This document shows, piece after piece, positions 3,429 through 64,000 of a stretch of 64,000 bases of DNA. How positions within the stretch are numbered: the first letter of the stretch is position 1; the number at the start of each line of letters is the position of its first letter. Below the pieces are notes generated by a model that was not told the DNA's origin, did no database searches, and saw only the letters and a program-made list of their open reading frames with translations. Source of the DNA: Nocardia sp. NBC_01730 (GTDB lineage Bacteria > Actinomycetota > Actinomycetes > Mycobacteriales > Mycobacteriaceae); assembly GCF_035920445.1 (NCBI RefSeq), contig NZ_CP109162.1, positions 496,001-560,000 on the forward strand. Reading direction: 5' to 3'. A program made the position numbers and the translations under genes.

Positions 3429-3443
3429 GTACAGGTTGAGACT

Positions 3444-6051: not shown

Positions 6052-6104
6052 GTCCCTGCCGCGAACGACAAGGTCTGGCCGCTGCCGTATGCCGGCCCCG
6101 AGGA

Positions 6105-36461: not shown

Positions 36462-36756
36462 TGTTACGCCCCTCGGACATTACGGTTCTCTTCGTTTGGT
36501 CCGAGAATACCGCTGACGGGGTCCTCGGCCGCCGAATCAGCGGATGGGCACTCTATCTGGGAGTTCACGGCTTGCTCGGCCGGGAGGCCGGGTTCCCATG
36601 GTATGGGAGCAGACTTTGCGATCTCGCGATGTAAGGGCGTAGTGACCTCCGCTGGGGTAAGTGCAGGATTTGACATTCCCTTGAGGTGTGAATTCGGGTC
36701 TGCCGTGCAAGCATTGGGTATACACCTGTGCGTTCGGCAACTGTGGGAGGTTTGTC
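36462..36756. promoter_or_regulatory. Divergent control region between YezG-like gene 2 and the giant operon
   Basis: It contains inverted repeats CTCGGAC/GTCCGAG (about 36472-36505) and CCGCTGA/TCAGCGG (36510-36516 and 36537-36543). TTGACA at 36670-36675 could be a -35 box, but no matching -10 lies at 16-18 bases. GGGAGG at 36745-36750 is the ribosome site of the next gene. Confidence 0.5.
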
Positions 36757-37080: not shown

Positions 37081-37166
37081 CGCGAAGGTCGGTTGGATGC
37101 TGGGGTGATGAGGTAGGCGCACGGCCGTTGGGCTGTGCGGATTCGAGATCGGTTGAGGGACTTCAG

Positions 37167-37835
37167 ATGTGGAATGGGCGCGCCAAAGGCAACGGGTCCG
37201 GCATGGAGGCGATGCTGGGTGAACTGCAGGATCAGTTGCGGCATGTCACCGATGTCGCGCAACAGCGCGCCGGGCTGACCGCCAGCGCGGCGACACGGGA
37301 TAAGCGGGTCACGGTGACGGTGGATGCCGACGGCCATCTGACCGATCTCCAGTTCTCCGCCGATATCAAGCAGCTCAGCTATGACGAGATCGCGGCGGCT
37401 GTTGTCGCTGCCGCGCAGCAGGCGGTGGCGGAGGTGACCCGCCGCGGCGGTGAGCTGTTCGAGCCGCTGAACGATCACCGGGCTCGCATGCCGAAGCTTT
37501 CGGAGCTGATCGAGGGGCTGCCCGATATCGAGGGCCCAGCCGCATCGCGGCCGTCGGTGACGGGTGCGCGGACGAATACCGAAACCGGTGAAGAGATTTG
37601 GGACAGCACGGCGCCCGAGTCGAGCAATGCATCGCTGGTAGCCGCACACCTGGATGACGAAGATCCGGAGCTGCGGATCGTGGACGCGGTCGATTTGCCC
37701 GAGCCGAGCACATCCATGGTTGCCGCGGACATGGACGAGGAAACCACGGAACCGTGGTTCGCGGATGAGGTCGATAACGGTCACATGGCCGGTGATGCGG
37801 AGGGCTCTGAAGTCTCGGATCGCGGCTGGGGGTAG
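37167..37835 (+). CDS. YbaB/EbfC-family protein (EspL-like)
   Basis: A 222-residue protein from ATG 37167, preceded by GAGGGA. The YbaB/EbfC part covers about residues 10-105 (MEAMLGELQDQLRHVTDVAQ, KRVTVTVDADGHLTDLQFSA, LSYDEIAAAVVAAAQQAVAE). A long acidic tail follows (DEDPELRIVDAVDLPEP, MDEETTEPWFADEVDN). In ESX-1 of mycobacteria the YbaB-like EspL stabilises EspE, EspF and EspH, so a chaperone or adaptor role for the giant downstream protein is more likely here than nucleoid binding. The next start lies six bases after its stop. Confidence 0.8.
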   Translation: MWNGRAKGNGSGMEAMLGELQDQLRHVTDVAQQRAGLTASAATRDKRVTVTVDADGHLTDLQFSADIKQLSYDEIAAAVVAAAQQAVAEVTRRGGELFEPLNDHRARMPKLSELIEGLPDIEGPAASRPSVTGARTNTETGEEIWDSTAPESSNASLVAAHLDDEDPELRIVDAVDLPEPSTSMVAADMDEETTEPWFADEVDNGHMAGDAEGSEVSDRGWG

Positions 37836-37841: not shown

Positions 37842-38840
37842 GTGGGACTCGAAGTACCCCCGTACTTGAAGCCGCTCTTCCCTGTGGTGGCTGGCGATCA
37901 TTGGCCGGCGACCGACGAGGAGCAGGTCTGGGCGATTGCGGACGCTCTGCAAGATCTTGTCGATGAAGGGAACGCCGCGCTCATCGAGAAGACGGCCGAG
38001 TGGGCCAGGAAAACGGCCCTGGCCTGGCCGGAGGGAGAGGGTTCTGAGGAGCTGCAGCGGCAGATCAGCCAGCTCGGCATCGCCGGTGCCGGTATTCTCG
38101 AGAATGCTCAGGCGCTGGCGGATGCTATCGGCGCGTTCGGTAATCAGATCTATGCGACGAAACTGAACCTACTCTTTACGCTCGCGTGGGTTTTTATCGA
38201 AGTAACTATCGCAAGCTTGGCAGGGCCGGCCGGTGAAGTGGCCGCATGGCGGTCGATTCTCAGCGGCCGCTGGGCGTCGAAGTATTTCGGTGGCCTGCTG
38301 GATAAGGGTATCGAGTTTGTAACCCGCGTCCTGGCCAAACGTTTGGTAACCAAGTTTCCGCAGATCGCTCAATACATATCCCGTGCAGGTGGTTACCTCT
38401 ACGAGGGTATCCAGGAAATGCTCGAGGAAATTCTTCAAGGGGGCCTGCAGGAATGGATCGTCCAGCAATCGCTGATCGAGAAAGGCCGACAGGACGAGCT
38501 CGACTGGGAAGCACTCGAGAAGACTATGAAGGCCGGTGCCTGGGGTGGTGCCGCGGGCGGCCTTTTCGGCCACCTTCTGCAGCGGTTGATGGGGAAATCG
38601 ACCAAGTTGATGCAGATACTGCCCTACAACAAGTGGGGCGGGCTCGGCCGCGGCGCGATACAGGGAATTCTGACGGGTCTCGTGGGCGCGGTGTTCGGTG
38701 GTGTGGCCGGGGCCCGGTACGACGGCATGTCATGGAGTGAGGCATTCGACTCGATCACCGGGCTGCAACTGCTGAGTGGTGCGGTGTCGGGCGCGCCGTC
38801 GAGCATGGTCTACGGCTTCCGCGGCTATTCGGAATTCGGC
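37842..38840 (+). other. N-terminal CpnT-like WXG100 region of the giant protein
   Basis: Residues 1-333. EVPPYLKPLFPVVAGDHWP begins the region, followed by helices and hydrophobic segments (LNLLFTLAWVFIEVTIASLA, KAGAWGGAAGGLFGHLL, GILTGLVGAVFGGVAGA). These are the features of the helical module that guides such proteins into ESX export. Confidence 0.75.
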
Positions 38841-41800
38841 GGGCGGCCGATCGAGGAGCAGCAGAAATTCCACGATCTCCGGACCTGGATGAGCGACGTC
38901 GAGGCGGACATCCAGGCCGACGTCCTCGTCCGGCAGATGCATCGCGATATCGACCTTTATCTCCAGGACGAGGCCGAGCGGGAAAGCGCCCACCAGACGC
39001 TCGACGCCGCCGTCCGGGAGGTCAGCCAGAGCGTCACCTTCGATAACGAGGGCAAAACCCAGGTCAACCAGCATGCCCGGCGGATGCTGATGGACAAGCT
39101 CCAGGTCAATGTCGCGGAGCGGATCGATCAGGGCGCGTCCCTGGCCGGGGTGTCGACCGAAGCCGATGTCGACGCCGTCTATGCGCGGGGGCAGGCCGAT
39201 GGCATAGTGGCCGGGCTGCATCAGAAGGTGGACGGGCGTTTCTCGGAGGGGACGGAGCAGTTCGCCGCGCATCGGCTGATCGACGACATGCTGTTCGGTA
39301 TCGCCGCGTCGAATCTCGGTGATTCCTCCCTGTCCGAAGCGGAGCGGTTGGCGCGGTTCGAACAGCTCGATGAGGCACTGCAGGAGTGGATGGAGCCAGA
39401 AGCGCCTGAGGAGGAAGAAGAGGAGGAGAAATCCGAAGAATCCGCCGCGACGGTCACACAGGCCGAACAGTCCTCGGGGCCCGGCTTCGTCTCGAGGATC
39501 GTCGGCACCGACATCTTCGCCAGCCACGAAGCCGCCCAGCCAGCCTCCCGGTACGACGAGAACGGCGTCCTGATCGGCGCCGACAACATCGGTCAGTCCA
39601 TCGCGATCACCAAGACTGTGGACGAGATCATGCAGCTGGTGCCGCAGATCCCCGAGGTCGACCTCAGCGGACTGCCGGAGAAGGAGCGGCGCAAACGGCA
39701 GAAGGAGTTGCGGATATTCGAGTTCCGGGTGAACGGATTCCGTGCGGCAGTCACCCAGGCGATCGTCGATGCGGTGCGGCGAACCGGTTCGAATGCGCGG
39801 GTCATTGCGACGCTGGGCGGCGATGGGGTTGTGCAGGTCCGGGTGGTCGACGCGCACGCGGATCTGGGGTTGCGCGCCAATGACCAACTGATCGGAAGTA
39901 GACAGGGCGATCAGTCCGGCCACCGGAAACTGGATTTGGTGTTCGCGAACACGGATAAGTGGGCGTATGGGTGGAATGCATCCGGGCACAACGAGCTTCG
40001 GTTTGAGGCAAATCTGACGGCCCCGAGTTTCACGGCGTCCGCGCCGACCGGCTCCGGGCCGAAACGTACTGCGGCGTCGGTCGATCCGAAGGCGCCGGTC
40101 TTCGACGGCTGGACCGGTGTGGCAGGTCTGGCAGCGGATCTCGCCGAGCTGGTCGGTGCATCACCGGATCTGGAGTTCGGCGACCCCACCGCGTCGACAT
40201 CGGAGTCCGGCGCCGGTGCGGCGCCATCCTCGGAGTACAGCGACCTCACCGCGTTGGAGCAGATGGTCGGCCCCGTCCCCGCCGAATTCGCGGCCGACAC
40301 GTCTATCTTGACGGCACAGCCCGGTGGTGATCGGAAAGTGGACCATCTGGCCAACCATCTGTCCGGCTGGCTCGAGAGCCAGAAGATGCCGTGGATGCAG
40401 GAAGCGTCTCGGCAGATGATGGCGTACCAGGCCGGCGGGCAGCCGATCGGCGGCGTGCACGAGGTGACCGGGCTCGAGGATCTTCAGGATGTTGATGATA
40501 AAGACGAAGTCTTCGTTATCACCGATGGGCTGGCCAAGATCGGGTTGACGATCGCTGGTGACGACGTGGAATCCGGTGTGGCACTGGCACTTCAGGCTTT
40601 GAACGCGATGACCGCGGACTGGTCGCCCACCCAGGCCCAGCATGCGAAGACCGCACTGGAGCAGGCATTGCGCAATGCCGCATCGCTTTCCGGCCGCAAG
40701 GTGCGGATAGAAGCCGAGGTGACCGACGATCCGAAGACGGGACCGCGCCTACGGGTGCATGTGTTCGATCTCGGCATCGGGATGCCGACCGAGCTGTCGG
40801 CGCAGCCGGGCGACGGCGTGCGTGACCTCCCAGCGGTGACGATGCATGCCGACACCTACGGCGTCGACGTCGGGGTCGCCGACAGCACCGGATTCGGCTG
40901 GCGCTACCGACTGCGGTTCGAGATTCCGGCGACACCGGCGGTGCAGTCCGAGAAGTCCGGTCTCCCCGGCATCAGCGGCAGACTGCGAGCCGCGCTCGGG
41001 GAGCTGGCCGACAGCCCGAATGCGTCGAAGCAGATGCGTAAGTGGACCATCGACCGGTTGGTGGCCGAGGCGCGCGACGCGCTGGAGCAGCAGGATCTCG
41101 CTGCCGACATCCGCCAGCAGCTGACCGATGCGCTCGCCGATTTCGACGCACTGGTCGTGCCGGTGACCGAAGCCGCGGCACGGGCGCGGCTGAATCAACT
41201 CGGCGGTGTCGAGGTCGGTCCGTTGGCGCGGGTAGTCGGCGGCAAGCTGCTGCATATCCGCCCGATGCAGACCGACGATCCGGTCCTGGACGATCCGGTT
41301 CTGCGGGCATTGGCGCGGCGGGGCGTTCCGATCGAGCGCTGGCGGGTGCAGGTCGACGCCGCCGGTCTACCGGTGTACCAGCAGTGGCAGAACGGCAAAT
41401 GGGTGCCAGGTCAACCGGACACCAAGGCGCTGGATTCCGCGGGGGCTGCGCTGGCGCAGGAGCACGCCGTGCGGACCGTGCGGGATGTACTGGTCGCACG
41501 CGCCCTGCAGGTGCGCAATGGACGACCGTCGCCGACTGCGAGACAACAGATTTCGGAGCTGCTCGAGCTTGCTGAGCAGGTAGCTGAACTCCAGGAGAAA
41601 CTGAAGAAGGCCCAGTTCGCGCCGGCGCAGGTGGGGAAGCTGGGCGCCGAACCCACTGACGAAGAAGAGGACCGCTCGGCGGAGGCTGTCGAGGAAATGC
41701 GTCAGCAGGTCGCCGACTTGCGCGCCGAGCTGGCGCGGGCCCGGTCGGACTGGTTCGCGCGGGCGCAGGGCATGCAGCTCATTTCCGCGGAGTTGGCCGC

Positions 41801-44800
41801 CTCGGCGTCCGAGTTGCCGGTGCTGCCGGAACAGCTGCCGCAGGCACTGAGCGACATCGATACGCAGATCGGTAACCTCGACACGGAGATCGGCGGTATC
41901 GAGGCCCAACGCGTCGGGCTCGACCTCGGCGAATCAGAACAGCCACGGCGCGGGCGTCGCGCTGAGGCGGCGCAGAAGGCTCGACAGGCCGAGCGGGCGC
42001 GATTGCGGGCCGAACTCGAAGCTCGCAAAGAGGAGCGGGCGCGGCTGCAGGCCGAGCGGGACCGGTTGGCGGCGGTACTGGACCAGGCGGGCGAACTGTT
42101 GGCGCGGCTGGCGCAGTCGCGGGCGGCGGATGGGCTGTCGGAACAGCAGGCCCGCACCGACGACGAGATCGCCGCCGCCGCGGACGATGCGTATCAGATC
42201 GCGAAACGGCAGCTGTATGCCTTCACCGTTGGGATGAATCCATCTGCGGCACATATTGTTTCGGAGGATGCCGTCGCCGCCGCGAACGCCATCACCGGCG
42301 ACGACGCGCACGCCGCGATTCAACGGGTGCAGGCGATCGAGGCGGGCCTGCACACACTCGAAACACAGTTCGGTTCAGAGGTTTCCGGCCGCGATGGGAA
42401 GCCCAGCGCTGCGCCGATGGGCCCCGAACAGTTGGCCCAGGTACTTGCCGCCGCGGGCGTCGAGCTGCCCGAACAGCGGACGGCGACGTTCTTGCTCGCC
42501 GCGGCGGAGCGGGTGCTCAACGACCCGCAGCACACCGATATCCCTGACCAGACGCGGCAAGAGTTGGCCGCGGCCGTAGCTGAACTCCAGCGATCACTTC
42601 GGCAGTCGGCCGCGATCCGCGCCGAACGTGAGCAGGTCGGCGGCGCCCCGATCGGCAACTGGGGCAAGGTGGTCGGCGACCGGCTGGTGATCATTGCCGA
42701 CGAAACCTCGGGCGGCAACCCGATCAGCGATCCGAGTACCCTGACGGCGCTGGAATCGGCTGGGGTCGTGGTCGAGCGGCGTGCGGTGGCCGCAGACGGT
42801 ACGGTGACCATCGCCTACTGGAACGGCGGTTCCTGGCGAACCGAACCGCCGCAGTCGATTGGACCCGATCGGCGGGTCGCGGGCAGCACCGAGTCCGCCG
42901 TGCTGGGCAGCCTCGACGCCCGATGGGCACAGCAACTCCAGACCCTGCGGAGGGTGCAGGAGGTCTTGGCGGCCCAGGCACTCGCCGGGGTGTCGGATGT
43001 GGACAGCAGCATCGATCCGGTCGCCGCGGCCACCGCGCTGGCCGCCGAGGTCGAGCGTCTGGACGCTGAACTCGATGACGTGGCCAGGAAAGTGGCGCAG
43101 ATCGAGACCGAGATCGAGCAGCTCGCGGCCGAACACGCCGAGCTCGTTGCCGCGCTGGAGCAGTCCGACGAGATGCCGGAGTCGATCCGGGAACTGGGGC
43201 AGGCCCGCGCGGCGGCCCAGATCGTCATGCGGGATCAGCTGCAAGCCGAACTCGACGCACTGCGGTCCCAACAGGCGAGGTTGCAGGCGCGGCGAGACAA
43301 GCTGATGGGTGCGGTCACGCCTGAGTCGACCACCCAGAACTCGGATCGGTCGGGACTGCTGCGCGCACTGACCGAGGCGAACGCCTGTGCCGAACAGATC
43401 ACCCGCGAACGCAACCGGCTCGCCCGGATGGCCACCCGCCAGGCCGCCAACCTGGTGGAGCGCCTGTACCAGCGGGTCTTCATGGGCTACCCGGATCCGG
43501 AGCAGCGTGCCGCCGTCCGGGCGAAACTGCAGGAGTTCAGCCGCGCGGATGATGCGAAAGCCAATGGCGCCAATGCATTCCAGCGGTTGTCCAGGGCGGA
43601 GCGCTTGTGTGCCCAGAGCAACATGTTGGAACAGGCCGCTGTCGACGCCGTTGAGCGGCGTCGCGCCGAAATGGGCCGTCCAGAGGTCGTTGCGCTGGTG
43701 CGGGCCCTCGAGGGGTTGGTCGAGTACCCGGAGCGGATGACTCCGTCGCAGTTGCTGGAGCTGGCGCGTCAGCAGCTGGGGCGTATGGACCTGCCGAAAT
43801 GGGCATGGGAGCCCCTAGCCCTCGCGGCGGCCGGATACGAGGACGCGATCTCGGATGGCACATCGCCGGGCCAGGTCCGGAATGAGACCGCCATGCGTTT
43901 GGCGGAGACTTTCGATTCATTGCTCATCAACTGCGACGGGCTGACATTCGACGAAATGTGGGCCGCGGCACAAGCGGTGCTGTCGGGGGAGTCTGACGAA
44001 CTGACCGGGCGGGTCGAACTCCGGGAGGGCGTCGAGCTGTCGCTGGATGACTACACGGCGTTGGACCAGATCCTGGCCGACCATGAATCCGCTCTTGCCG
44101 GGGACAGTGGAAAGCAGACCGCGACAGATCGGAAAGAGGTTGCGGGGCGCCACTATTCGAAGAACGCTGATTCGAAGGCCACCGAGCAGGAGACGACCGC
44201 GCAGAGGATCGCTGAGTCGGGGACCACTGCGTCGGAGACCGACGAGCCGGAGCAGACCGAGTTGGAGGTCCGTCGCATGTTGACGGGTGCGCTTTCGGCG
44301 GTCCGCGGCGATCCGGACCGCATCGGCGCCCTCCCGCTCGGCCAGCTGGCCGACGAGGTTCGCCTCCAGCTGGCTCTGCTGGACCCCGATGACAAACACC
44401 ACGGCGAACTTTCCGAGGCGCTCGCGGAATTCGACGCGCTGGTCGAACGGCTCACCGACGCCGCCATCCGGGCGGAACTGGAACGCCTCGGTGGCGTCCC
44501 GATCGGCACATGGGGTCGGCTGATCGGCGGCAGGCTGATAATCATCCTGCCCGCCGGGGTGCAGGACCCGGTGCTGGACGTGTACGTGCGCCAGGCCGCG
44601 GATCGGCGTGGTGTCGAGATCGAGCTGTGGCAGGCGGGGGTCAATGCCGCAGGTCGGCCGACGTTGCGCACGCAGCGGAATGGCGAGTCGGTGGCTGGGC
44701 GGCCGATGGCCACGCAGGCCGGATCGCCGAACCCCGTTCTGACCGCGCTGCTGCAGGAACACGCGCTGCGGACGCTGCGGGACGCGCTGATCGAGCAGGC

Positions 44801-56800: not shown

Positions 56801-59800
56801 TGCGCCGTCAGCGGAACAGGACATGGCCCTTGCCGACGTCGAGCAAGGGGGACTGTGGTTGGGTCGCTACACCGATCTGACGGTGGACGAGCTGCTCGAC
56901 CTGTCCCTCGACAAGATCCGGGCGTTCTTCGGCGGCCGCGGCGACGGATTTACCATCCAGCTCGACAGATTGGAGCGGGCGGGCAACGGCGGTGTGCGGC
57001 TGATCTTTTGGCTGGAGCTCGACAATGGTGTGCGGAAGCCGCTCGTCTGGCAGTTCGGACCCGGCAACGATGGCCAGATCACCCAGTTCTCCCCCAGCTC
57101 TTTCCACGGGCCGGACGCGGACGACGTTGCCGCCGCTGCGCGGGCGCTGTCGATCGAGACGGGCGCGTGGCTGGACGAGATGCGGCCAGCAGTCGCACTG
57201 AGTGGTGGGTCCGAGGAATCCGGCCCGGAATCATCGTCGGAGTCGAAGTGGGAATCCGAGCTGGGCGGCTCGGAGACTTCCGCGACTTCCGCGACGCCCG
57301 ACGACGCTACGGCAGCTGCGGGGAAGGCCAGCGAGATCGCCGCTGGGTTGGGCGATGGCGAGATGGCGCCCGTCATCGAAGATTCGGCGCCGAGTGTGCA
57401 GTTCACGCGTTCGGCCGGAACGATGCCCACCGGCAACAAGATTCGCGCCTACCTCGATGAGATCCTCCCGCCGGGCACGCCCGCCGCCGTAGTCGATGCT
57501 GTTGTGCGGCAGGTCGTGCGGTCGCTGGGGTCGCCGGGGTCGGTCGATGTTCGTGAACAATCCGAGGTTGCGATGTCGTGCGTCGACTCCGGTGGCGAAC
57601 CGGTGCTGCGGCTGGAGATCGACACCGCGGGGGCAGCCGAGACTGTCGATATTCCGCTGGTCGAAGAGAAGCCCGGTCGTCGAACGAATTTCGGCAGGGA
57701 TCCGAAGCGCAGCCATACCGGCCATCGACGGGAAGGCCGGAAATGGCGCGACGGTGATTCGGATGGCGATCCAGCGGCCCCCGCCGGTCTGAAGGTTAAT
57801 ACCGAGATCGATCGGACTTTCGACTCGCTTGAGCGTCGAGGTGTCGAGGTGTCGGGCCTTCGGTCGTTGGTTCCGAATGAAACGGTTGACGAGATCGTGC
57901 TTGGTGCGGATGCGGCTCTGGCCAAGTACCCGTGGCTCGGGCTCGATGGCATCGGCGTCGCCACATTCGTGCAGATGCGTCGCAAATTACCGTCGGCTCG
58001 CGAGGACGATGTCGTTTGGACGTATCAGGAGTCCGACGGCAGGGGTGGTGTTTCGACCCGGATCGTGTTCAACGAGGTTTTCATGAGCAACCGGGAATTG
58101 TTCACCGCCGCTGTGGCCGAAACCATTGGCTATGTCGCCGACAGTAGCGATCATCCCGGCCAGACGGCCGTGTACTACGAACTCGGGCGGGTGGCGTACT
58201 GGACCCACCAGCAACGAACCGAGAGCCGTGTCATGGATGTGCTGGTGGGGCGCTGCCATGGACGTCCCCGCGGCGACGTTGACTTCGTGCCGTGGTTCGA
58301 ATCGCAGTTCAGTGAGCGGTCGATCAATCCACGCACGACATCATTCGATCTGAACGAGGCGTGCCCCGAATCGTGGGCCACGATGGAGCTGGCACCTGCG
58401 CGCGCCACCGAGGGGCATGAAGCGATCCACGAGCTGATGGGTGGCCATCCGGCTGACCAGGCCGAATCGACGGAGTCGTCGCGAGAACAGCGGGAGAAGC
58501 TGCCCGACAGCGCACCTGGCGAGGGCACAAATCGAGACGACGAGACCGATACCAGGGTGGGTGGCGGACCTGAGGGTGGGGCCAGTCGTACGGACCGGCT
58601 GGGCGGTTGGAGTGGTCGTGACCGCAAGATGATGCGGGGGCCGCAGGGGCACCCCGATATGCGCAGGTTTCCGGAGAATGTTCCGCCTGAGGACGGGCTG
58701 GAGGGTCATTCGGAGCCGTCAGCGGATACCGATGTTCCCGTTACTGAGGTTGCCTCCGACGCAACGATGGCGGACGAGCAGCTCTGGAGCGTGCGGGTTT
58801 CCCAGGCATGGGACCCGGCGGTCGAAGGCTCGCTGTCCGACCGGGGGCTGACGCCGAATCAGATCCGGGCGGCTCGAACCGCGGTCCAGTTCGCGTTGTT
58901 CGCGCACGAAGGGTTCGCGGACGTCAGTGTCGGTGACGGTGCGACGGGCCCGGTGGTCATCGTGAACGCCACGGACGCTGACAACAACCCGGCGCTGACT
59001 ATGAGCTTCGACGGCAGCAAGCTGTCGTTGACGCTGCCGCTGGTGTGGGACAGTGCGTGGGCCAGTGAAGGCCGTATGTCGTTGATCCTGCTGGCCGACC
59101 AGTTGCTGGGTACCCCCGCGCTGTTTGCTCTGGGCGATCCGGATCGCGAGTACCTGTGGAACTCGTTGGCTGAACAGGAGATTGGTAGTCGGCGTGCGAT
59201 CGACGGCCGTCCCGCTGAGCTGGTTATGGCGCGAACCAATGATGGTGTGGTGCTTGAACTGCGGCCGACGGCCTCCGGCAACAAGGTTCTCGGGTCGTAC
59301 CAGGCCGTTGACGAAGGACTGTTCGTTGCGGAGGCCGATGACAGCAGCGGCGAATCCGGTGCCGACGTTGGTTCGGAAACCGATGGTGCCAGGGCGAAGC
59401 AGCAGATTGCTGACAGCATGCCGGACCGCGGATCCGAACTCGATCCGCTCGCTGTCGAGAAGGATTCGGTACGGCAGCAGATTCTCGAGGTGATGGGGGC
59501 GACCGAATGGGCTACTCCGGAGCAGATTCGCACGGTCGTGAAGTTGGCGGTCGTGCCGGCCGCAGAGGTGATGCACCGCACCGGCGGAGCGGTGTCGGTA
59601 CAGGTGGTGGATGACGGTGGGGTGCACTACGTATCAGTGCGCATATCCGGCGAGGGGGGCGCGCCGTGGACCGTGGGCTGGTCAACTGATGGTGGCTACT
59701 GGTATGACATCGATTACGCTTCTATCGATGGTCGACTCGAGGTATCCGTCAGTCCGAGCGGGCTGCTCGACGGCGTAGTTCAGCAGGGACCTGGCACGCC

Positions 59801-62800
59801 CCCGCTGTCGGAGATGATGGCGGACGTGTCCGCGGTACTTGGGGAGTACTTCCACGAGAACCGGGCGTTCCTCTCCACTGGTCCAGACGCTCAACCCGTG
59901 CCGGAGGGCGGTGCGTACGAGTATGTGGCGCTTCCAGAAGGGCTTGCTTGGCCGCTTGCCGCCGTGCTGGAGGAGTCCTGCACATGGATCGAGGTGGATG
60001 AGCACGGGTTGTTCCGAACTGCGGACGGCGAGCTATACAACAGCGGTCCAGACCTTACCAACTTCGTTCTCGCTAGTTCCTCGGGCACCTTCGTCACGTC
60101 GAAGTACATCCACGACTACCCGACGGCGGCATTGGCGTCCCGAGGCGACGGCGTCGCCGCATTCGGCGTGTGGGAGGTCGAGAACGGCCGGATCACAAGT
60201 GTCACTCCGTACAGCAAATTGTTCGAACACGCCCAATACGATCCAAAGTTCGTTGCTCAACTGTGCAATCAGCTGACGAAGCATGGCGTCGACCCGAGCA
60301 TAGTCCTCGAGCTGGATGTCTCGGGTAAACCTCAGGGGCGGTTGTGGTGGGACGGCGCTGAGGCGCCTGCAGTTGACGATCTGATCGACGGCGGGCTCAG
60401 TGCGGCCGAAGACATTTTCGCTGGGTTTGGGGATGACTTCTGGGTGCAGGTCACCGAAGTGACGTCAATACCAGATGGGGTGTCGGTTACTTTGACACTC
60501 AATCCAGTTAAGGGTGAACCGGGTCCAGTTGAGGATGAACCGGGCATCGTCACGATTCTGGTGCAGCGCAACAACAACGGCGGGACTGCCCAGTGCACCT
60601 CCGTAAACCTCGGCCACGAGTCTGAACGAGTCGCTGACATCCTGGACGCGATGACAGACCGCTTGGTTCCCTGGTTCGCCGCCAACGGCATCTCGTGGCG
60701 CGGAGACGAACTGGAACCAATCGGTACGGCAGCTGAGAGCGTCGACCCGCCTGCTGGCGAACCGGGCCACGATGTGCCTGCGGCAGAGTCGGGGGTGCCG
60801 GGTTTGCCATCGCCGGACACCGTGCGGCGCAGCGAGTTCAATGCCGCGGCACAGGGCACACTGGAGGTCGGTCCGCCGGTGCGTTCGGACTTCCATCCGC
60901 CGGCCGGACCGCCCGACGGGCGACCCACGCGCAGTTCCGGCGGACATCCGCGGCGGCCGGTGTCCCCGTCCACCGATGACGCTGCGCGGGCCGACCCTTT
61001 CACCGGCCGGGTGTCGCTGCTGGATGTGGTTCCGGGTCCGGCGGATCCGCCGACGTCGCCGAGCGAGCGGGAGGAGCTGGTGCGCGCCCGGCTGAGCGCC
61101 CGGCTCGGGCCGCTGCTGCCCTCCGGCGGGAACAACCCCGGATTCGGTCAGGCCGCCGATCTTTTGCTCCGGCTGCACAGTAGTGTGACCGCGGCTCCGT
61201 CGGCCATCGACGCGAAGATCGACACCGTCGCGGGTGTCCCCATTCTCCGGCTGACCGTCACTGTTCCCAAGGATCAGGCCAGGCATCGCGGCGAGATCAC
61301 CGACCTGCTGGGTTCTCATGCCCATGGGTTCGACATGGACGCCCGCGGAACCCGCCTCGTGGTGCGCTGTCAACTGTGGCTTACGCCTCCGGCTGTGCCG
61401 GATGCGACGATCATCGACGACGTCGGCGCCGACGACATGGCGCGCGAGATTGTCGAGGCCTGGAACGGCGGTCGTTCCCCTGTGTTCACCGGAGTCGACG
61501 AGCGAGGCAAGCAGCACAGTTTCCGGCCCGAGCATGTGCGCCGGGTGCGGCTGATCGGCAACGACGGCCGGCGGGCGGGTATCAGTTTCGGCACCCTGGA
61601 GCGGACCGAGTTCGCGCAGCGGTGGATGACCATGCCGATTCAGCAGCACCGGACCATGTTCACCCCGGTGCGGCACGTCGACACCTGGGACGGTCGACGG
61701 CAGGTCCGCGCGGATCCGGTTCCGGCGCCGTGGCCGTCGGATTCAATGCTCATCGACGCACACCACGATGAGCAAGGCTTCTGGATCCAGATCGAGGATC
61801 GGTTCGGCCGTGTCCGTGACATCGCCGTCGACGGTCGGACTTTCGGTCTGTTGGCGTCAGCCGATCCGGACGTGCGGGCCGCGACCACCGTGAACGTATG
61901 GTCGTGCGAGGCCGCCGCCGACTCGGACGGCGACGACGCGGTGACGGCGAACCATGACTCGGTGACAGCGCTGTCGGCGTCGGACGCCGAGGCGATGGTG
62001 GGCGCGTTGCGTGCCGCCGGGGTGGACGGCGACGTGTGTGTCTCGAGTCGGACGCTGTATCTGACGCTGACCAGATACGCGGATTCGGATGTCCCTGTCG
62101 GTGCCGGGATCGGCGCGGACGTCGAATTCGGTCCCGATGGCGCCATCGTCGCATCGCCGTGGACGGTGTACACAACGCCGGTTTCAGGCCGTGGCCGGCC
62201 GCCGAACCATCCCGGTCTGGGTGATGTGTCCGGCCCGCGCAGTCACGACGGAAGCGGACGCGGAGAGCCGCCAGGCAGGCGGTGGAGTGCCAATGGTGGG
62301 CGAGCCGCCGCGGTGGCGGCGACGGTCCGGCACCCCGCCGTCCGCTCCATGACCGAGGTCGGCGCGGCGGTGGACGCGGGTGCGACAGTGGTCGAGGTGC
62401 CGGTGAGCGTGACGGCCTCCGGCGAGGTGGTCGCCGACTTCGCCGACGGTGCGATGGACGTGGCTGCGGTGACCGAGTTTTGGGCTGAGCGTGGTGTGAC
62501 GTTGCATGTGCTGCTGGCCACCGCCGGTCTGCGCAGCGATCGAGAGGTGGCGGCCACGGTGAGCGCGTGCCTCAGCGCGCTCGCGGACCTCGAGGTGTCG
62601 TACGGGGTTTCGAGCAGCGACCCGCGCGTGTGGGATCACGTTCCCGAGGACGTGGACGTCGTGGCCCGGCTGACGCCGGAGGCGGTGGCCGCCCGCAAGC
62701 CCGACGTGTTCGATCGGGCGTTGCGGGCGGGTGCGCGCGAGATCGTGCTCGAGCCGGGGGTGCCGATCGACGGATCTGTCGTGATGCGTGCCGAGGGGAT

Positions 62801-64000
62801 TCCGGTCACGGCGGTGACCGATGACGTCGATGCCATCCACCGGGCGATGAACCTCGGGGTGACTGGATTCGAAACCGCCGCGCCGCAGCACGTTCGCTCG
62901 GCCGCAGCGCGCATTCCGGACGTGCGGGGCGTGCCGAAGGATCCCGGCGGCCCGAGGGCGTCCGAGGTGAGTCTCGACGCGACGATGGATCTGCCCGCCG
63001 TGATCGCGGCGCTGTCGCAGAACGCGGACCGATTCACCGCCCGGGTCGTGCTTGCCGCCGACGGCACACCGATACTTGAGCATGCGCCGGGGACGACGCC
63101 GGTGGCGCTGGCCGATGTGGCGCGGGCGCTGGCCGGGCGATCGCACGGCCCCAGCCTGGATGTGCACCTGCCGGAGGCGAGCGGCGAGGACGCCGCGCGC
63201 GCAGCCGAATCTGTTATCGCCGTGCTGAATCAGCATAATCTGAGGCGCTATTGGGTTACCGGCGAATCCGGCCGGGTCGCCAAGGTGGTGCACCGCCGGG
63301 TGGCTGTGCCCCCGCAGGGCTGCAGCGCCATCTACGTCGAACCCGAACCGCGTGCCGTGCAACGTCGTGATGTCGAGAAGTTGCCGCCGCACCTTCGTCG
63401 TGCCGCCCGGCTCATCTGGCTGCACAACGTGAAACCGGCGAAAGCCGCTCGCGCCATGGGGATCTCCCGCGCAGAGCTCTGGACGCTGTTGGGGCAGGCG
63501 AATATGTCGCCGGCCGCTGCGTCGGAGGAGTCGATGCGCCGTCGGGACACCGCGAGCCCGACCGAGTCGACTGATTCCCGTCCCATCCCTGGCACCACCC
63601 GTGGCCACGGGGATCAGCGCCCGGATGACCGCGGGCGTTATCGGCCGACTCGCGGTCCGATGCTGGGCGATCCGGACCGTTTCGGCGGCTGGCACCGCAA
63701 TTCCGGCCCGGACCGGGAACTGGCCGGCGAGGTGTTGCGGGAGCAGGTGTCGGCCGGCGACGACCTCGAGTCGATCACGGGCACCATCGTGGAGACACTC
63801 TCCGACGACGTGACCGATGCGCTCGCCATCGAGGTGGCCGATCACGTGCGCGGCGTGCTGTCCGCACACGGCGGGGAGGTCGCGCTGAGCGCGCCGACCG
63901 AGTCGGAATCCGCCGAATACTACTGGCAGATCGACATTCGCAGCGGACCGGTGCGCATCCTGCTGCTGGTGGCCGCCGACGGGCGGGTACAGCTGCGCTG
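37842..64000 (+). CDS. Giant CpnT-like WXG100 polymorphic-toxin-type protein (open at window end)
   Basis: GTG 37842 opens a frame with no stop up to base 64000: at least 8,719 codons. The N-terminus (GLEVPPYLKPLFPVVAGDHW) is the CpnT-like WXG100 region of ESX-exported toxins. After it come acidic and coiled-coil stretches, five copies of a GGVPVGDW module, a 1.4-kb internal duplication, zincin-like units of which one keeps HELGH (residues 4762-4766), linkers rich in Gly, Ser, Pro and acids, a His/Cys region near 7975-8022, a GDPD-like stretch and an HTH-like segment near 8525-8555. The effector tip presumably lies beyond the window. Repeated modules and dead enzyme copies suggest growth by duplication. 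It is the last visible gene of the operon starting at 36757. Confidence 0.88.
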   Translation, partial: MGLEVPPYLKPLFPVVAGDHWPATDEEQVWAIADALQDLVDEGNAALIEKTAEWARKTALAWPEGEGSEELQRQISQLGIAGAGILENAQALADAIGAFGNQIYATKLNLLFTLAWVFIEVTIASLAGPAGEVAAWRSILSGRWASKYFGGLLDKGIEFVTRVLAKRLVTKFPQIAQYISRAGGYLYEGIQEMLEEILQGGLQEWIVQQSLIEKGRQDELDWEALEKTMKAGAWGGAAGGLFGHLLQRLMGKSTKLMQILPYNKWGGLGRGAIQGILTGLVGAVFGGVAGARYDGMSWSEAFDSITGLQLLSGAVSGAPSSMVYGFRGYSEFGGRPIEEQQKFHDLRTWMSDVEADIQADVLVRQMHRDIDLYLQDEAERESAHQTLDAAVREVSQSVTFDNEGKTQVNQHARRMLMDKLQVNVAERIDQGASLAGVSTEADVDAVYARGQADGIVAGLHQKVDGRFSEGTEQFAAHRLIDDMLFGIAASNLGDSSLSEAERLARFEQLDEALQEWMEPEAPEEEEEEEKSEESAATVTQAEQSSGPGFVSRIVGTDIFASHEAAQPASRYDENGVLIGADNIGQSIAITKTVDEIMQLVPQIPEVDLSGLPEKERRKRQKELRIFEFRVNGFRAAVTQAIVDAVRRTGSNARVIATLGGDGVVQVRVVDAHADLGLRANDQLIGSRQGDQSGHRKLDLVFANTDKWAYGWNASGHNELRFEANLTAPSFTASAPTGSGPKRTAASVDPKAPVFDGWTGVAGLAADLAELVGASPDLEFGDPTASTSESGAGAAPSSEYSDLTALEQMVGPVPAEFAADTSILTAQPGGDRKVDHLANHLSGWLESQKMPWMQEASRQMMAYQAGGQPIGGVHEVTGLEDLQDVDDKDEVFVITDGLAKIGLTIAGDDVESGVALALQALNAMTADWSPTQAQHAKTALEQALRNAASLSGRKVRIEAEVTDDPKTGPRLRVHVFDLGIGMPTELSAQPGDGVRDLPAVTMHADTYGVDVGVADSTGFGWRYRLRFEIPATPAVQSEKSGLPGISGRLRAALGELADSPNASKQMRKWTIDRLVAEARDALEQQDLAADIRQQLTDALADFDALVVPVTEAAARARLNQLGGVEVGPLARVVGGKLLHIRPMQTDDPVLDDPVLRALARRGVPIERWRVQVDAAGLPVYQQWQNGKWVPGQPDTKALDSAGAALAQEHAVRTVRDVLVARALQVRNGRPSPTARQQISELLELAEQVAELQEKLKKAQFAPAQVGKLGAEPTDEEEDRSAEAVEEMRQQVADLRAELARARSDWFARAQGMQLISAELAASASELPVLPEQLPQALSDIDTQIGNLDTEIGGIEAQRVGLDLGESEQPRRGRRAEAAQKARQAERARLRAELEARKEERARLQAERDRLAAVLDQAGELLARLAQSRAADGLSEQQARTDDEIAAAADDAYQIAKRQLYAFTVGMNPSAAHIVSEDAVAAANAITGDDAHAAIQRVQAIEAGLHTLETQFGSEVSGRDGKPSAAPMGPEQLAQVLAAAGVELPEQRTATFLLAAAERVLNDPQHTDIPDQTRQELAAAVAELQRSLRQSAAIRAEREQVGGAPIGNWGKVVGDRLVIIADETSGGNPISDPSTLTALESAGVVVERRAVAADGTVTIAYWNGGSWRTEPPQSIGPDRRVAGSTESAVLGSLDARWAQQLQTLRRVQEVLAAQALAGVSDVDSSIDPVAAATALAAEVERLDAELDDVARKVAQIETEIEQLAAEHAELVAALEQSDEMPESIRELGQARAAAQIVMRDQLQAELDALRSQQARLQARRDKLMGAVTPESTTQNSDRSGLLRALTEANACAEQITRERNRLARMATRQAANLVERLYQRVFMGYPDPEQRAAVRAKLQEFSRADDAKANGANAFQRLSRAERLCAQSNMLEQAAVDAVERRRAEMGRPEVVALVRALEGLVEYPERMTPSQLLELARQQLGRMDLPKWAWEPLALAAAGYEDAISDGTSPGQVRNETAMRLAETFDSLLINCDGLTFDEMWAAAQAVLSGESDELTGRVELREGVELSLDDYTALDQILADHESALAGDSGKQTATDRKEVAGRHYSKNADSKATEQETTAQRIAESGTTASETDEPEQTELEVRRMLTGALSAVRGDPDRIGALPLGQLADEVRLQLALLDPDDKHHGELSEALAEFDALVERLTDAAIRAELERLGGVPIGTWGRLIGGRLIIILPAGVQDPVLDVYVRQAADRRGVEIELWQAGVNAAGRPTLRTQRNGESVAGRPMATQAGSPNPVLTALLQEHALRTLRDALIEQAFRVPRGMVAREEQRLRVLQRAQQRLARLRARAAGLDGESPEWAAAAADVMEARQQVAELFAELLPEQLPPGDRRTAQVHAIIDLLAADVRGAEDIEATLCSYADGLEQLLSDYGVASGGAGKGPGGQAQRLRKLLTGFRDLRKRLSPAEFAAVSAAVAGLGSSVEPDALVDDGPVEGESAAEAKAEEVADFEARLKRAEFALDQLGRLGAEPTDEIEDRSADALEKMRQQVAYVRDLRAKLVRARAELADITALGDSADGATVEGTTPVQSAAAASTSRGSGSGKGGPGYTLTERLGSSILRVLPEMMVPGGALGQVLENWGLGGVSESLRALVAAGFAAHGGDVRASRLSSGAVTITGYAAKDDGTGGKGKRWVSVTADPDSGDVQVRWRVQAEGDPTGWTQLMSDWGNSDDVREGAANWFYEVVGDPSDGTARNVTATLSGREPDRALTVTVKGVPGEKTFPESGGGSRPAPKPDGNHVDPGSGGASEPADGAGAEQTVAAALSGALGGFVGRLRAELAAFADDLGRLSLGELLVVARGVVARPELSEVEWGPVAGVLADYDAAVAAAARAVRQRLGGVPVGDWAVVLADRVVVVAPEGVDDPVVDMRARQALELHGELPVERLQVAGFDALGRTIVQQWVDGGWVPVADAQAAGPAAPVTVGESLRQRQEQLQKVAEALASHHLRVTPGPHAAAAVADVVAMFDAARTVDDCDEHLAGIGGQIERLEQAGSEPPGLSPEQESTLEALRAERDDLITRRARARIDWYACAGRLGLQPPRPGAHETAPMPYQLPDLLSALDNRITAAERDVARLADELAVLGDLIDQLHLGRDDVDEQRARNAARRAERRRLVSALEARQADLDGLRAERAEFAEMLGQPDTMTPDRLGETTQRFLGRWSGVEAVATVAARAEQARHDRMQIVNPLVDVLDGLVDDPDRLTTDQLLAAAREVLAREDLSDDQWWPVENIVAEYDAPVGGDPIGSFNPDRIMHENAPMPQPGSTQGEVDDAEAAELTRRRVMERDAASDLPDPDSPVADAAPRDAAVGLPDEQRELSDGGLTRREVLTLVGRVAAGTGLEVGGDSAAGSDWLRATFGDEVAELVGYSELLCGRINELLLEEPPWTIGFGDRFVVDHDARVISIDEGARSDPAQVVYLLAIAVAEAGGYPLRYSAFVPDPAGMPREDFVEAYLLARFSQYADYLLVAAAVRWEILEGTRAADGPVDIFDFEPVDFGVVSDKHPEGDALDQLMIGIWDPQIAREWVARELMEDPDAPYYDLWLEEAESQWDLANGGGRSGGNSVPVVADPGAGDAVAGPAVVGVGAAGFSGSGGAGRANGLVETVRAAAEGPQQNLAAEDAGGPNPSDGTAAYTSSGPGGMPAVDGVDAEPTAQQGNRRKAGSWGIGGLWRKILTTAAHAFLPTATASAATPGTSSPSWSIDPDEATTVDEVVSALRKRNQDAEVVSALANLAGTALDPERGLVRVRIGTTESGELAVEMHDDKGVLLTVTVSGTELIAIWRVLPGNWPGFGIALAQTARFDAVRVGEHSLQQVVAALGGYVDPRGLTVRMTVPRGAQNTQSPAVVWWVGDLPPGRLPGDADGDEGASTRDHPPVRQAHVAATMQQMVRISEERGWDQYADESGIGTSRNPEAAQPLTTRLREALVGLRDDPEGMPLVWEAIGTRADDPTRIPVRRALQALLAYPERLSLDDLVVLAREVMSWPQLSGGKWAAVAEVLVDYDAKVAEAVSAHLQRSGGVPVGDWATVLDDRVVVLTPAGVDDPVLDPRVLSAIEAHLPVERLRVRLDAYEQPVVEQWIRGGSQQPLTSSLREVPATAGSAAPITVGESLRLRQRNLQVVAEALAVQHLRVTSGPKAAAVADVAGMFDAARAVDAADAQLTDITSRIRLLEQTAETSGLSPGQQATLAELRAERDELLTRRGRARIDWYAHADRLQLDPPRLGAHETAPMPYQLPQLLAALDDQLIAADDDIDELTTEVEELDYQLRGDPPIHQLNLSGDVDKQRAANAADQAERRRLAERRVAAGEELASRLADRDRLRGERADFAEMLGQPATMTPDRLGETAQRFLSRWAPLEVLAAVAARAEEAGAARNEILAPLVDALARLADTSDDPDELLAAARKVMTRPGLPEDQWGPVAQVLADYDEPVVGNADATGGLSTDGAATDTSVNAATEPGREDAVAAEIARSERDFEELFGLVAYVLGAPTSPEHDSPQARLLGLVNALTASGDPDDVFTASDEHGRRVFIDNPLSPTAVDEYRSILLPLQSRFEQRGRGAWFEAMMARLDEIEAHAIGDRDWIPPAPDAGWAPSSDSPSRARSPWKLRLKRRTALRVASGVIPASYLLSVSRDSSYGSFALGEDVLELAKMSPDLWDRLQRALGVGYEIEYGDLPEGVDGRCWTKRDDIHLHHKLRALNGRSVGVLAHELGHATGMQIDTTADPPRPGESFRDWIERQVRKKFTNEAEANLVRAQARHEILVSAGIDIEAYQVHDRDGVRLGVRRAFENETYARVVRGEITWEQAREQVTDHLMQDFDQAYEDNFEGHGYWYQDFGGYYTDEWYRLLDITVRTGLGPDVDGLVRKSRSLLDDVAELLNTGWTIRYIEQPKDSVGKRKEIIADDSKRSVDVERKEIYVEGGLDDPERAVWVLAARVATARSAAADVTMQPPTEGMTEEEWIEREMRRRLAPRAVELLSSARVWWEIDQTDGTDIGSYTREVYQTDKDYGELDVIGEVMNDDLDWEEGVVRVLEGMVADRTAPIQRQLRQALEDIWRSKYTEVDPITPDSIDSGFAPPGTGSGGNYAPIAAAAAAAAGARMGGNDGDSSNAELSDDVEEPVSPLPPGGARHVELGRNIARTAAGTDLEVWEDRVAEWTGSGARIITMRGAGGVNGIDPADLDSIVARVREYIDELRGQGLPVVLVYDGDPDDRAAPDVGAVFGMLADAFQNDVAVTFVAAQRKGWYGEPDDGPIRSAEGTPYETYVFDDNLPGEHASLTQSASLVGYAGYEQFFVGPVGPIATEQLVDLGDKVAQRPAGLGPIAVKIIVSRINPELDEALDDKLRGLPSDDTSKREKVAAQIDQRRRLPYGAFCDENGNVVLDLVPGLAIEVVGQLGGKPAGPVGIGAAHRTVDAEAQSAPAPAGFVGSPADTEALVAWFDGHPEFDDRERALVLRYIEGLENRCPQVGLEAYDGWLQLQFLNSAGSAITYLRVSGGPEDRQVSVSTTAHIHQGSLDEGWAPYVCSQLAACFDHPGANGAKDWIEEKVRASQDQGNLAMYATLKLSGRPRVQLGNGVQDTHFMPGLEGLGEYQLSEAGLPPEQGDSHLRDSSITDVPPEDGSSTADEARGGGSEQDTAVVEAGAESPAQCALRRKLGEVYANESAMWKRLGRPRSEVPAVDVWGWEQVLEAAHKLVAGPEIDPDDRRELREALQAWEEESGSGTESGSTQDAAAPTPETPSSPSASSLFLPPDYPAYGGVDGAYQPGNAGVPKRDSVPADQDAATSRPGGPRMADEENAAQASEVGGTAPGSAATTVDGRRSRIKQARAEQASRVEVGLNGLVVDDAVTPAMFAGIAAFLEGARDSEAVALPGVISVAELDDSDQLYEVEIHGDGADRWSVLVLNRRIFTEEGWLSSVLESHSWAVDLPHDVTTVLGHAIGAAAYLLESNDFRGESDPEAYAHNELDAGLRERYSTEQKRYVDDVTDSKYQQWKQSGFPKGRNGSLLSVGEAVAASVAKLLSGQQPTSGLEGDEAGTGEPSDQTLNEVEAGLVERFAAHRSNTATTTSRDPRTGPVRDEQTGLSAWIARPYTLRRNGELTHVLTAWGFDVDTARMLQDVLSGSGTDYVDIRFQEKSGHLRIEAFGAASLIIDGTDGELAFTWTLERDGKGRPTGFSSQLLGKLVAGWRNEAADFQGAMELLTDAGVPGTQSNVTVTVSGRAPNRSLQRERSGVGEPARYVESVPQQTESGPDSSTPTTDLTAELPDSDAPSAEQDMALADVEQGGLWLGRYTDLTVDELLDLSLDKIRAFFGGRGDGFTIQLDRLERAGNGGVRLIFWLELDNGVRKPLVWQFGPGNDGQITQFSPSSFHGPDADDVAAAARALSIETGAWLDEMRPAVALSGGSEESGPESSSESKWESELGGSETSATSATPDDATAAAGKASEIAAGLGDGEMAPVIEDSAPSVQFTRSAGTMPTGNKIRAYLDEILPPGTPAAVVDAVVRQVVRSLGSPGSVDVREQSEVAMSCVDSGGEPVLRLEIDTAGAAETVDIPLVEEKPGRRTNFGRDPKRSHTGHRREGRKWRDGDSDGDPAAPAGLKVNTEIDRTFDSLERRGVEVSGLRSLVPNETVDEIVLGADAALAKYPWLGLDGIGVATFVQMRRKLPSAREDDVVWTYQESDGRGGVSTRIVFNEVFMSNRELFTAAVAETIGYVADSSDHPGQTAVYYELGRVAYWTHQQRTESRVMDVLVGRCHGRPRGDVDFVPWFESQFSERSINPRTTSFDLNEACPESWATMELAPARATEGHEAIHELMGGHPADQAESTESSREQREKLPDSAPGEGTNRDDETDTRVGGGPEGGASRTDRLGGWSGRDRKMMRGPQGHPDMRRFPENVPPEDGLEGHSEPSADTDVPVTEVASDATMADEQLWSVRVSQAWDPAVEGSLSDRGLTPNQIRAARTAVQFALFAHEGFADVSVGDGATGPVVIVNATDADNNPALTMSFDGSKLSLTLPLVWDSAWASEGRMSLILLADQLLGTPALFALGDPDREYLWNSLAEQEIGSRRAIDGRPAELVMARTNDGVVLELRPTASGNKVLGSYQAVDEGLFVAEADDSSGESGADVGSETDGARAKQQIADSMPDRGSELDPLAVEKDSVRQQILEVMGATEWATPEQIRTVVKLAVVPAAEVMHRTGGAVSVQVVDDGGVHYVSVRISGEGGAPWTVGWSTDGGYWYDIDYASIDGRLEVSVSPSGLLDGVVQQGPGTPPLSEMMADVSAVLGEYFHENRAFLSTGPDAQPVPEGGAYEYVALPEGLAWPLAAVLEESCTWIEVDEHGLFRTADGELYNSGPDLTNFVLASSSGTFVTSKYIHDYPTAALASRGDGVAAFGVWEVENGRITSVTPYSKLFEHAQYDPKFVAQLCNQLTKHGVDPSIVLELDVSGKPQGRLWWDGAEAPAVDDLIDGGLSAAEDIFAGFGDDFWVQVTEVTSIPDGVSVTLTLNPVKGEPGPVEDEPGIVTILVQRNNNGGTAQCTSVNLGHESERVADILDAMTDRLVPWFAANGISWRGDELEPIGTAAESVDPPAGEPGHDVPAAESGVPGLPSPDTVRRSEFNAAAQGTLEVGPPVRSDFHPPAGPPDGRPTRSSGGHPRRPVSPSTDDAARADPFTGRVSLLDVVPGPADPPTSPSEREELVRARLSARLGPLLPSGGNNPGFGQAADLLLRLHSSVTAAPSAIDAKIDTVAGVPILRLTVTVPKDQARHRGEITDLLGSHAHGFDMDARGTRLVVRCQLWLTPPAVPDATIIDDVGADDMAREIVEAWNGGRSPVFTGVDERGKQHSFRPEHVRRVRLIGNDGRRAGISFGTLERTEFAQRWMTMPIQQHRTMFTPVRHVDTWDGRRQVRADPVPAPWPSDSMLIDAHHDEQGFWIQIEDRFGRVRDIAVDGRTFGLLASADPDVRAATTVNVWSCEAAADSDGDDAVTANHDSVTALSASDAEAMVGALRAAGVDGDVCVSSRTLYLTLTRYADSDVPVGAGIGADVEFGPDGAIVASPWTVYTTPVSGRGRPPNHPGLGDVSGPRSHDGSGRGEPPGRRWSANGGRAAAVAATVRHPAVRSMTEVGAAVDAGATVVEVPVSVTASGEVVADFADGAMDVAAVTEFWAERGVTLHVLLATAGLRSDREVAATVSACLSALADLEVSYGVSSSDPRVWDHVPEDVDVVARLTPEAVAARKPDVFDRALRAGAREIVLEPGVPIDGSVVMRAEGIPVTAVTDDVDAIHRAMNLGVTGFETAAPQHVRSAAARIPDVRGVPKDPGGPRASEVSLDATMDLPAVIAALSQNADRFTARVVLAADGTPILEHAPGTTPVALADVARALAGRSHGPSLDVHLPEASGEDAARAAESVIAVLNQHNLRRYWVTGESGRVAKVVHRRVAVPPQGCSAIYVEPEPRAVQRRDVEKLPPHLRRAARLIWLHNVKPAKAARAMGISRAELWTLLGQANMSPAAASEESMRRRDTASPTESTDSRPIPGTTRGHGDQRPDDRGRYRPTRGPMLGDPDRFGGWHRNSGPDRELAGEVLREQVSAGDDLESITGTIVETLSDDVTDALAIEVADHVRGVLSAHGGEVALSAPTESESAEYYWQIDIRSGPVRILLLVAADGRVQLR
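41202..41430 (+). repeat. GGVPVGDW module, copy A
   Basis: From residue 1121. GGVEVGPLARVVGGKLLHI begins the unit; DDPVLRALARRGVPIERWRV and YQQWQNGKWVPG follow. It shares its layout with copies at 42639, 44490, 46536 and 50064. Confidence 0.75.
42639..42860 (+). repeat. GGVPVGDW module, copy B
   Basis: From residue 1600. GGAPIGNWGKVVGDRLVII begins the unit; SDPSTLTALESAGVVVERR and AYWNGGSWRTEP follow. It is the most diverged copy. Confidence 0.7.
44490..44720 (+). repeat. GGVPVGDW module, copy C
   Basis: From residue 2217. GGVPIGTWGRLIGGRLIIIL begins the unit; GVQDPVLDVYVRQAADRRGV and EIELWQAGVNAAGRPTLRTQ follow. Confidence 0.75.
46380..47742 (+). repeat. 1.4-kb internal duplication, first copy (contains module copy D)
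   Basis: Residues 2847-3301. The order is LSLGELLVVARGVVARPELS; module D (GGVPVGDWAVVLADRVVVV); ESLRQRQEQLQKVAEALASH; RARIDWYACAGRLGLQPPRP; GAHETAPMPYQLPDLLSALD; FAEMLGQPDTMTPDRLGETT. The same order returns at 49917-51303. Confidence 0.85.
49917..51303 (+). repeat. 1.4-kb internal duplication, second copy (contains module copy E)
   Basis: Residues 4026-4488. The order is LSLDDLVVLAREVMSWPQLS; module E (GGVPVGDWATVLDDRVVVL); ESLRLRQRNLQVVAEALAVQ; RARIDWYAHADRLQLDPPRL; GAHETAPMPYQLPQLLAALD; FAEMLGQPATMTPDRLGETA. It is collinear with the first copy. Confidence 0.85.
51930..52480 (+). other. Zincin-like metallopeptidase module (HELGH) in the giant protein
   Basis: Residues about 4697-4880. VLAHELGHATG holds the HExxH zinc site with His4762, Glu4763 and His4766. 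FTNEAEANLVRAQARHEIL follows some 35 residues later and can supply the third ligand. The pattern HELGH then an EAEA helix is typical of metallopeptidase domains in polymorphic toxins. Confidence 0.7.
61370..61960 (+). other. His/Cys region resembling the 'lonely Cys' domain
   Basis: Residues about 7850-8040. SDSMLIDAHHDEQGFWIQIE with His7974/His7975 precedes TTVNVWSCEAAADSDG with Cys8022. The spacing and the small beta-strand context recall caspase-like (clan CD) His-Cys dyads and the lonely-Cys region of giant actinobacterial proteins. Activity is uncertain. Confidence 0.45.
62340..62930 (+). other. GDPD-like stretch without the usual catalytic residues
   Basis: Residues about 8167-8363. SMTEVGAAVDAGATVVEVPV and TAVTDDVDAIHRAMNLGVTG, with FETAAPQHVRSAAARI, resemble the first and last strands of glycerophosphodiester phosphodiesterase barrels. 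The HRG and HD catalytic motifs are not present, so it would be a dead or repurposed fold. Confidence 0.35.

Follow-up and report, generated by a model that had tools for sequence, protein, structure and literature searches.

A 28,641-codon reading frame with a WXG100_2 head in Nocardia sp. NBC_01730, probably part of an interrupted polymorphic-toxin gene

Nocardia sp. NBC_01730 carries a giant gene that begins in a 64,000-base stretch of its DNA (the window; positions 496001-560000 of its genome, a single contig of 8,676,891 bases, 99.94% complete) and continues far beyond it. Its coding frame is real and is one of the largest in the genome. This frame is probably the 5' part, 28,641 codons long, of a multi-module polymorphic-toxin gene whose product would be presented to an ESX (type VII) secretion machine and which mobile elements have cut. 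An earlier observation, set out in a preliminary description of the window, is thus confirmed, and its interpretation is partly supported. Coordinates below are those of the window unless otherwise indicated.

37842..64000, plus strand: window part of the giant frame (codons 1-8719), continuing outside the window to a stop at 123767

The preliminary description had reported at least 8,719 codons without a stop, and the frame is indeed open from its GTG to the window's edge (37842-63998, plus strand; 8,719 codons, no stops). Upstream of this GTG there is no in-frame start, and a TAG lies at 37833. The proposed extension past 64000 was carried out by reading into the adjoining stretches, which placed the stop at 123767 (genome 619767). 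The whole product has 28,641 aa, a mass of 3.09 MDa (replacing the earlier estimate of about 0.9 MDa) and a pI of 4.75. Across the same DNA, the other five frames contain 151-685 stops each, with longest open runs of 241-1,166 codons; if stops fell independently at those rates, 28,641 open codons would arise with a probability of roughly 10^-66 to 10^-301. GC content is lowest at the second codon position in 20/20 tiles of the frame and highest at the third in 211 of 284 segments of 300 codons each.

The frame ends at a nest of mobile elements. The nest includes a transposase split into an HTH and a DDE_3 part, which we take to be of the IS630 type, flanking an oppositely oriented transposase-like frame (the latter recognised by eye), as well as a group II intron (RVT_1 2.6e-37, GIIM; Rfam RF02003 E 1.2e-22) and a DDE_5 transposase. 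Past the nest, a separate frame with 3,450 codons occupies 129813-140165. Its opening ~115 residues do not resemble the giants and in part overlap a transposase, and the remainder gives 22 alignments to related giants, most of them to residues 16,626-20,737 of a 20,758-residue giant of Nocardia flavorosea (its C-terminal part). Because the giant frame stops at the nest and a giant-like C-terminal part lies beyond it, the gene is interrupted in NBC_01730 and its end is set apart in a separate frame. An effector tip had been expected beyond the part then seen; the tip does lie out of the window, but in NBC_01730 the frame lacks a natural one and ends against mobile elements. Elsewhere in the window, the frames at 7239-8606 and 8964-10109 read identically, among the residues compared, to two genes of the nest, those for the reverse transcriptase of the group II intron and for the DDE transposase.

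The tip module, found in the separated 3' piece and in relatives, has a nucleotidyl cyclase fold of the ExoY/EF/CyaA type, with a structural match to the ExoY module of a MARTX toxin. Its PDB profile matches to cyclases are weak (E 0.25-1.1), and Pfam returned no cyclase family up to E 1 for 11 members. The tip-module profile found two proteins among 8,000 scored candidates, one a 348-aa hypothetical protein of Nocardia sp. NPDC023852. Just past the separated 3' piece is a YoeB/YefM-type toxin-antitoxin pair (L007:682-1211, minus strand; 9e-30 and 4.2e-13), and ~5 kb past it an SMI1/KNR4-like protein (L007:4897-5745; E 0.0037, under the Pfam cut-off). SMI1/KNR4 is a common immunity family.

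At its other end, the frame opens with a conserved head:

37842..39401, plus strand: conserved head, residues 1-520; 127 of 148 same-genus genomes have a match, the own genome included
37869..38243, plus strand: WXG100_2 (CpnT-like) domain, residues 10-134; Pfam E 6.5e-11, 42.9 bits against a curated cut-off of 27

The CpnT-like WXG100 head proposed earlier is therefore borne out. ESX export of the protein is plausible because of this head, a YbaB-family gene directly upstream and three EccB loci in the genome, which lie at 7.1-7.7 Mb, far away from the giant gene. No YxxxD/E signal occurs within residues 1-350. A simple hydropathy scan, not a dedicated predictor, gave 13 membrane-like segments in the chain, two of them in the head. 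The head had no match in plasmids, and residues 1-1220 had none among 548 scored candidates of a protein database, which may lack proteins so large. By Pfam, CpnT (Rv3903c) of Mycobacterium tuberculosis has a WXG100_2-type head in common with the giant frame. CpnT is far shorter than this frame, which carries many modules, and the TNT domain is absent from the Pfam matches of all 12 tiles and of the separated 3' piece as far as covered.

Enzyme-like modules, another element of the preliminary description, were recovered by a Pfam scan of all 12 tiles of the frame (~2,490 residues each, E up to 0.05). Besides WXG100_2 in the head, the matches comprise a GT4-conflict glycosyltransferase (4e-49), DUF218 (1.2e-10), Inositol_P (1.4e-50) and Abhydrolase_8 (1e-6); the remaining matches are under their cut-offs, except two glycosyltransferase families that overlap the GT4-conflict match. 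In NCBIfam, searched with four of the 12 tiles, nothing reached a curated cut-off, the best matches being inositol- and histidinol-phosphatase kinds (to 2.3e-38). Profiles made from the giant frame itself were also searched over 13 giant frames (one partial, one ended by the edge of the sequence examined) and the separated 3' piece. They define nine repeated module families spanning 5,735 residues of the frame, in which B has eight copies, E seven, D five, G four, F and I three each, A and C two each, and H one. The copies mapped in the window, with residues in brackets, are as follows:

40329..40940, plus strand: module A (830-1033), common to six other giants; GHKL/anti-sigma-ATPase-like by eye only
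41121..41507, plus strand: repeat D copy 1 (1094-1222), own-frame profile
42564..42983, plus strand: repeat D copy 2 (1575-1714), own-frame profile
44409..44804, plus strand: repeat D copy 3 (2190-2321), own-frame profile
46467..46862, plus strand: repeat D copy 4 (2876-3007), own-frame profile
48081..48668, plus strand: module B copy 1 (3414-3609), of a metallopeptidase-like family and lacking HExxH
49995..50399, plus strand: repeat D copy 5 (4052-4186), own-frame profile
51918..52502, plus strand: module B copy 2 (4693-4887), putative metallopeptidase, HELGH at residue 4762
52560..53171, plus strand: module B copy 3 (4907-5110), a paired copy that lacks HExxH
55605..56084, plus strand: module E copy 1 (5922-6081), partial, own-frame profile
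57861..58451, plus strand: module E copy 2 (6674-6870), own-frame profile
61422..61943, plus strand: module F copy 1 (7861-8034), one of three in the frame; nothing in Pfam above cut-off
62319..62981, plus strand: module C copy 1 (8160-8380), resembling a glycerophosphodiesterase barrel by eye; a single weak match (E 0.96) in the PDB profile search

Module B keeps HExGH in three of its eight copies, and copy 2 matches DUF6782 (1.1e-4) and a SprT-like family in Pfam, both under their cut-offs. Across the frame HExxH occurs six times, against a shuffled mean of 0.65 (20 shuffles, maximum 4). Module G is of the Papain fold toxin 1 kind: Cys is conserved in 92% and His in 97% of the modules with the column filled, 5/47 members match Pfam PF15644, and its structural list is topped by papain-type toxins and peptidases. 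Within the giant frame, two of the four G copies retain both Cys and His, and a single copy scanned alone gave no Pfam match. In the PDB, the profile of module H hits region 4 of sigma factors (best 6.9e-13); 131 PDB sequences have E values of 1 or less, and the majority of the best 60 are sigma factors or kindred regulators. There are 42 copies of H in eight frames, including 11 in each of two own paralogues and the one in the giant frame, so that this sigma-70 region 4-like module (e.g., L004:3331-3765) recurs up to 11 times per giant chain.

For the other families, profile searches of the PDB gave little. No match with E of 1 or less came from the alignments of modules A and B. Module E gave three weak matches, the best at E 0.056, module C five (E 0.15-0.98), of which one is a glycerophosphodiesterase, and module G six unrelated ones (E 0.24-0.98). 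Pfam found nothing above chance in 23 members of module E. The labels suggested by eye, GHKL ATPase for A, glycerophosphodiesterase barrel for C and clan CD cysteine protease for F, are all unproven.

The head is widespread in the genus. When residues 1-520 were searched in the 148 genomes at E 0.001, the nearest heads were those of Nocardia paucivorans NBRC 100373 and N. flavorosea NBRC 108225; the 20,758-codon frame of the latter ends in a cyclase-fold module. Among the matches listed, at least 27 frames of at least 10,000 codons with a related head occur in at least 17 same-genus genomes, and the longest, read through, has 40,807 codons (genome G051, 4.42 MDa). A head profile matched 107 of 298 genomes of the order, and outside the genus the head-matching frames, among the matches listed, have 165-12,458 codons. 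Some giants are also close neighbours, with two in N. flavorosea (G096:C2 170326-282800) and three in G051 (G051:C1 1903496-2062110). By comparison, six compact relatives of 1,868-3,648 codons carry the head and one cyclase-fold module, and modules A-I are represented in them by just one G copy, in one frame.

NBC_01730 itself has six heads, with frames that measure 36,589, 32,451, 28,643, 17,118, 648 and 644 codons from stop to stop. The four long frames amount to 114,801 codons, or 3.97% of the genome. The window's frame is thus among the largest of the genome, as had been supposed, but two paralogues, found through their heads, are longer. Two of five near-identical own heads (2946001-2957000 and 6933001-6944000) stop after ~645 codons near a simple repeat; in both, a long open run goes on in another frame, and the other three heads are open. 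These early endings could be phase variation or decay.

Giants of this family share blocks in altered order:

37842..41501, plus strand: N-terminal ~1,220 residues, collinear with the three closest giants; match order differs after this
55506..57176, plus strand: block in phase with the 27,921-codon giant of genome G005, dN/dS 0.55

The G005 giant and that of NBC_01730 have five blocks >300 bases in common, at 67-89% DNA identity, all in phase and in another order. Their dN/dS values are 0.36, 0.33, 0.38, 0.55 and 0.43, and those of two internal repeats of the giant frame 0.37 and 0.34 (Nei-Gojobori, without a housekeeping control). Near-identical pairs among the four own giants are in phase in 20/20 cases, many overlapping around one repeat, and none involves the window's frame. 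Matches to any of 12 other giant frames at 1e-5 cover 11,482 of the 28,641 residues. In the own 32,451-codon frame, a 691-codon block occurs twice (codons 23148-23838 and 25986-26676), in phase and at 100% DNA identity, reflecting either a very recent duplication or an assembly effect.

The genes next to the giant frame are as follows:

29555..31237, plus strand: second companion-family gene, 560 aa; YezG-like immunity match E 0.043, under the Pfam cut-off
34938..36461, minus strand: gene of the companion family (507 aa), with homologues at 11 of 14 related loci, some of them partial
36688..37080, plus strand: gene for a small protein (130 aa in the gene call) without a Pfam match; homologues at 4 of 14 related loci
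37128..37835, plus strand: YbaB/EbfC-family gene, Pfam 9.4e-8, six bases ahead of the GTG of the giant frame; homologues at 11 of 14 related loci

Homologues were counted by tblastn at 1e-3, with little upstream DNA in some loci. The best PDB match of the 560-aa companion protein is a tail sheath protein (E 0.034). The immunity-gene candidates, YezG-like (E 0.043) and SMI1_KNR4 (E 0.0037), are both under Pfam cut-offs. Upstream of the own 17,118-codon paralogue, ~0.3 kb including most of the YbaB-family gene is gone relative to near-identical sisters.

Taken together, the chain belongs to a known kind, the multi-toxin polymorphic toxins, but exceeds them in size class, and its relatives end in a cyclase fold; its function we infer. 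A trafficking head is followed by varied, recombining toxin modules, as in polymorphic toxins generally. MARTX toxins are likewise single long chains with several effectors that are released by cutting. The Nocardia giants may work alike, given a long multi-effector chain, an ExoY-fold module (in relatives) and protease-like modules possibly freeing effectors. However, the giant frame differs from MARTX in its secretion head and has no RTX-repeat family among the Pfam matches of its 12 tiles, and it is not classed as a member.

According to the portions of Zhang et al. 2012 (PMC3482391) available, some actinobacterial giants join several toxin domains, including a metallopeptidase and other peptidases, and the longest toxin in the set is SACTE_5178 of Streptomyces sp. 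SirexAA-E (13,652 aa). By description, not by sequence, SACTE_5178 and the NBC_01730 giant are alike in having several toxin domains, with metallopeptidase and other peptidase kinds, in one chain. The latter differs in its roughly twofold length (up to ~3x in the genus), its WXG100_2 head and its interruption, and cyclase-fold and many papain-fold modules occur on the Nocardia side. The size class is also that of Omnitrophota giants. According to the text available, a Velamenicoccus protein has 39,678 aa (PMC10066038) and lengths of up to 85,800 aa are cited in PMC12057145; such giants are described as having many transmembrane helices and adhesion or carbohydrate domains. Adhesion, sorting and carbohydrate-binding Pfam domains were not found in any of the 12 tiles at E up to 0.05. 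Nocardia and WXG are unnamed in the main text, as available, of a huge-protein survey (PMC11573180), and no reports of giant Nocardia frames were found in the literature searched, chiefly open-access papers.

If the frame is part of a polymorphic-toxin gene, the WXG100_2 head would bring the chain to an ESX machine of the cell for export by threading, with the small protein and the YbaB-family protein perhaps assisting its presentation. Toxin- or enzyme-like modules (metallopeptidase-like, papain-fold, glycosyltransferase, phosphatase) would follow in series, with cyclase-fold modules toward the C-terminal end in relatives. By analogy with MARTX, papain-fold and zinc-protease-like modules could split the chain into separate effectors. 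The family would grow via in-frame duplication and recombination of modules. As mobile elements cut the gene before the cyclase-fold part, any product in NBC_01730 would lack it. The sequence data directly establish the frame and its head, the families of modules, the blocks that giants share in phase but in another order, the constraint on coding and the interruption of the gene. Full-length translation, ESX export, self-cleavage and a target of the protein are what we infer for such a chain.

Alternatively, the gene could be an in-frame cassette store, in which the working toxin is the head plus a nearby module and the rest is a recombination reserve, rarely or never translated to the end, that yields new toxins when a module moves up behind the head. 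Degenerate module copies are common, the six compact relatives have a head and one cyclase-fold module, and the doubled 691-codon block would fit such a store. So would the near-identical 5' parts (97-99.7% over ~1,400-2,600 codons, besides the first ~850-900) that lead into different downstream parts in the own 17,118-, 32,451- and 36,589-codon frames. We nevertheless consider it unlikely, as deep blocks (codons 8,959-9,226, 13,293-14,510 and 20,164-20,468) are in phase with dN/dS of 0.33-0.43, and 28,641 codons without a stop would be unexpected for silent DNA.

A giant cell-surface or scaffold protein (an adhesin, coat or predation organelle), as proposed for Omnitrophota, rather than a toxin, appears improbable. 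Most of the chain is without assignment and its size class is near that of the Velamenicoccus protein, for which 39,678 aa is given in the text available (PMC10066038); however, the domains expected of such a protein were missing from all 12 tiles, the simple scan gave just the 13 membrane-like segments, two in the head, and several identified modules are toxin or conflict families. A chance frame or artefact is rejected in view of the single contig, the codon-position signal and the stop-rate probability. An assembly or annotation error (a false join or missed stops) is accorded next to no weight, even though the frame is read from one assembly: the genome is a single contig, the codon-position signal is continuous through all 20 tiles, and frames of 11,301-40,807 codons with related heads occur in other genomes.

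More tentatively, Nocardia might export effector chains of 3-4.4 MDa by type VII secretion, self-cut into many effectors that in relatives include several edema-factor/ExoY-fold cyclases. If true, few secreted proteins of any cell would match these chains in size, and their evolution would proceed by in-frame cassette growth. If the chains are made, they would provide a test case for the longest polypeptide moved by a type VII machine, and for how a cell survives when many toxins are joined in a single molecule. A series of frames from short to giant (1,868 to 27,921 codons), which have this head and a cyclase-fold module in common, makes the growth of giant genes testable within one genus.
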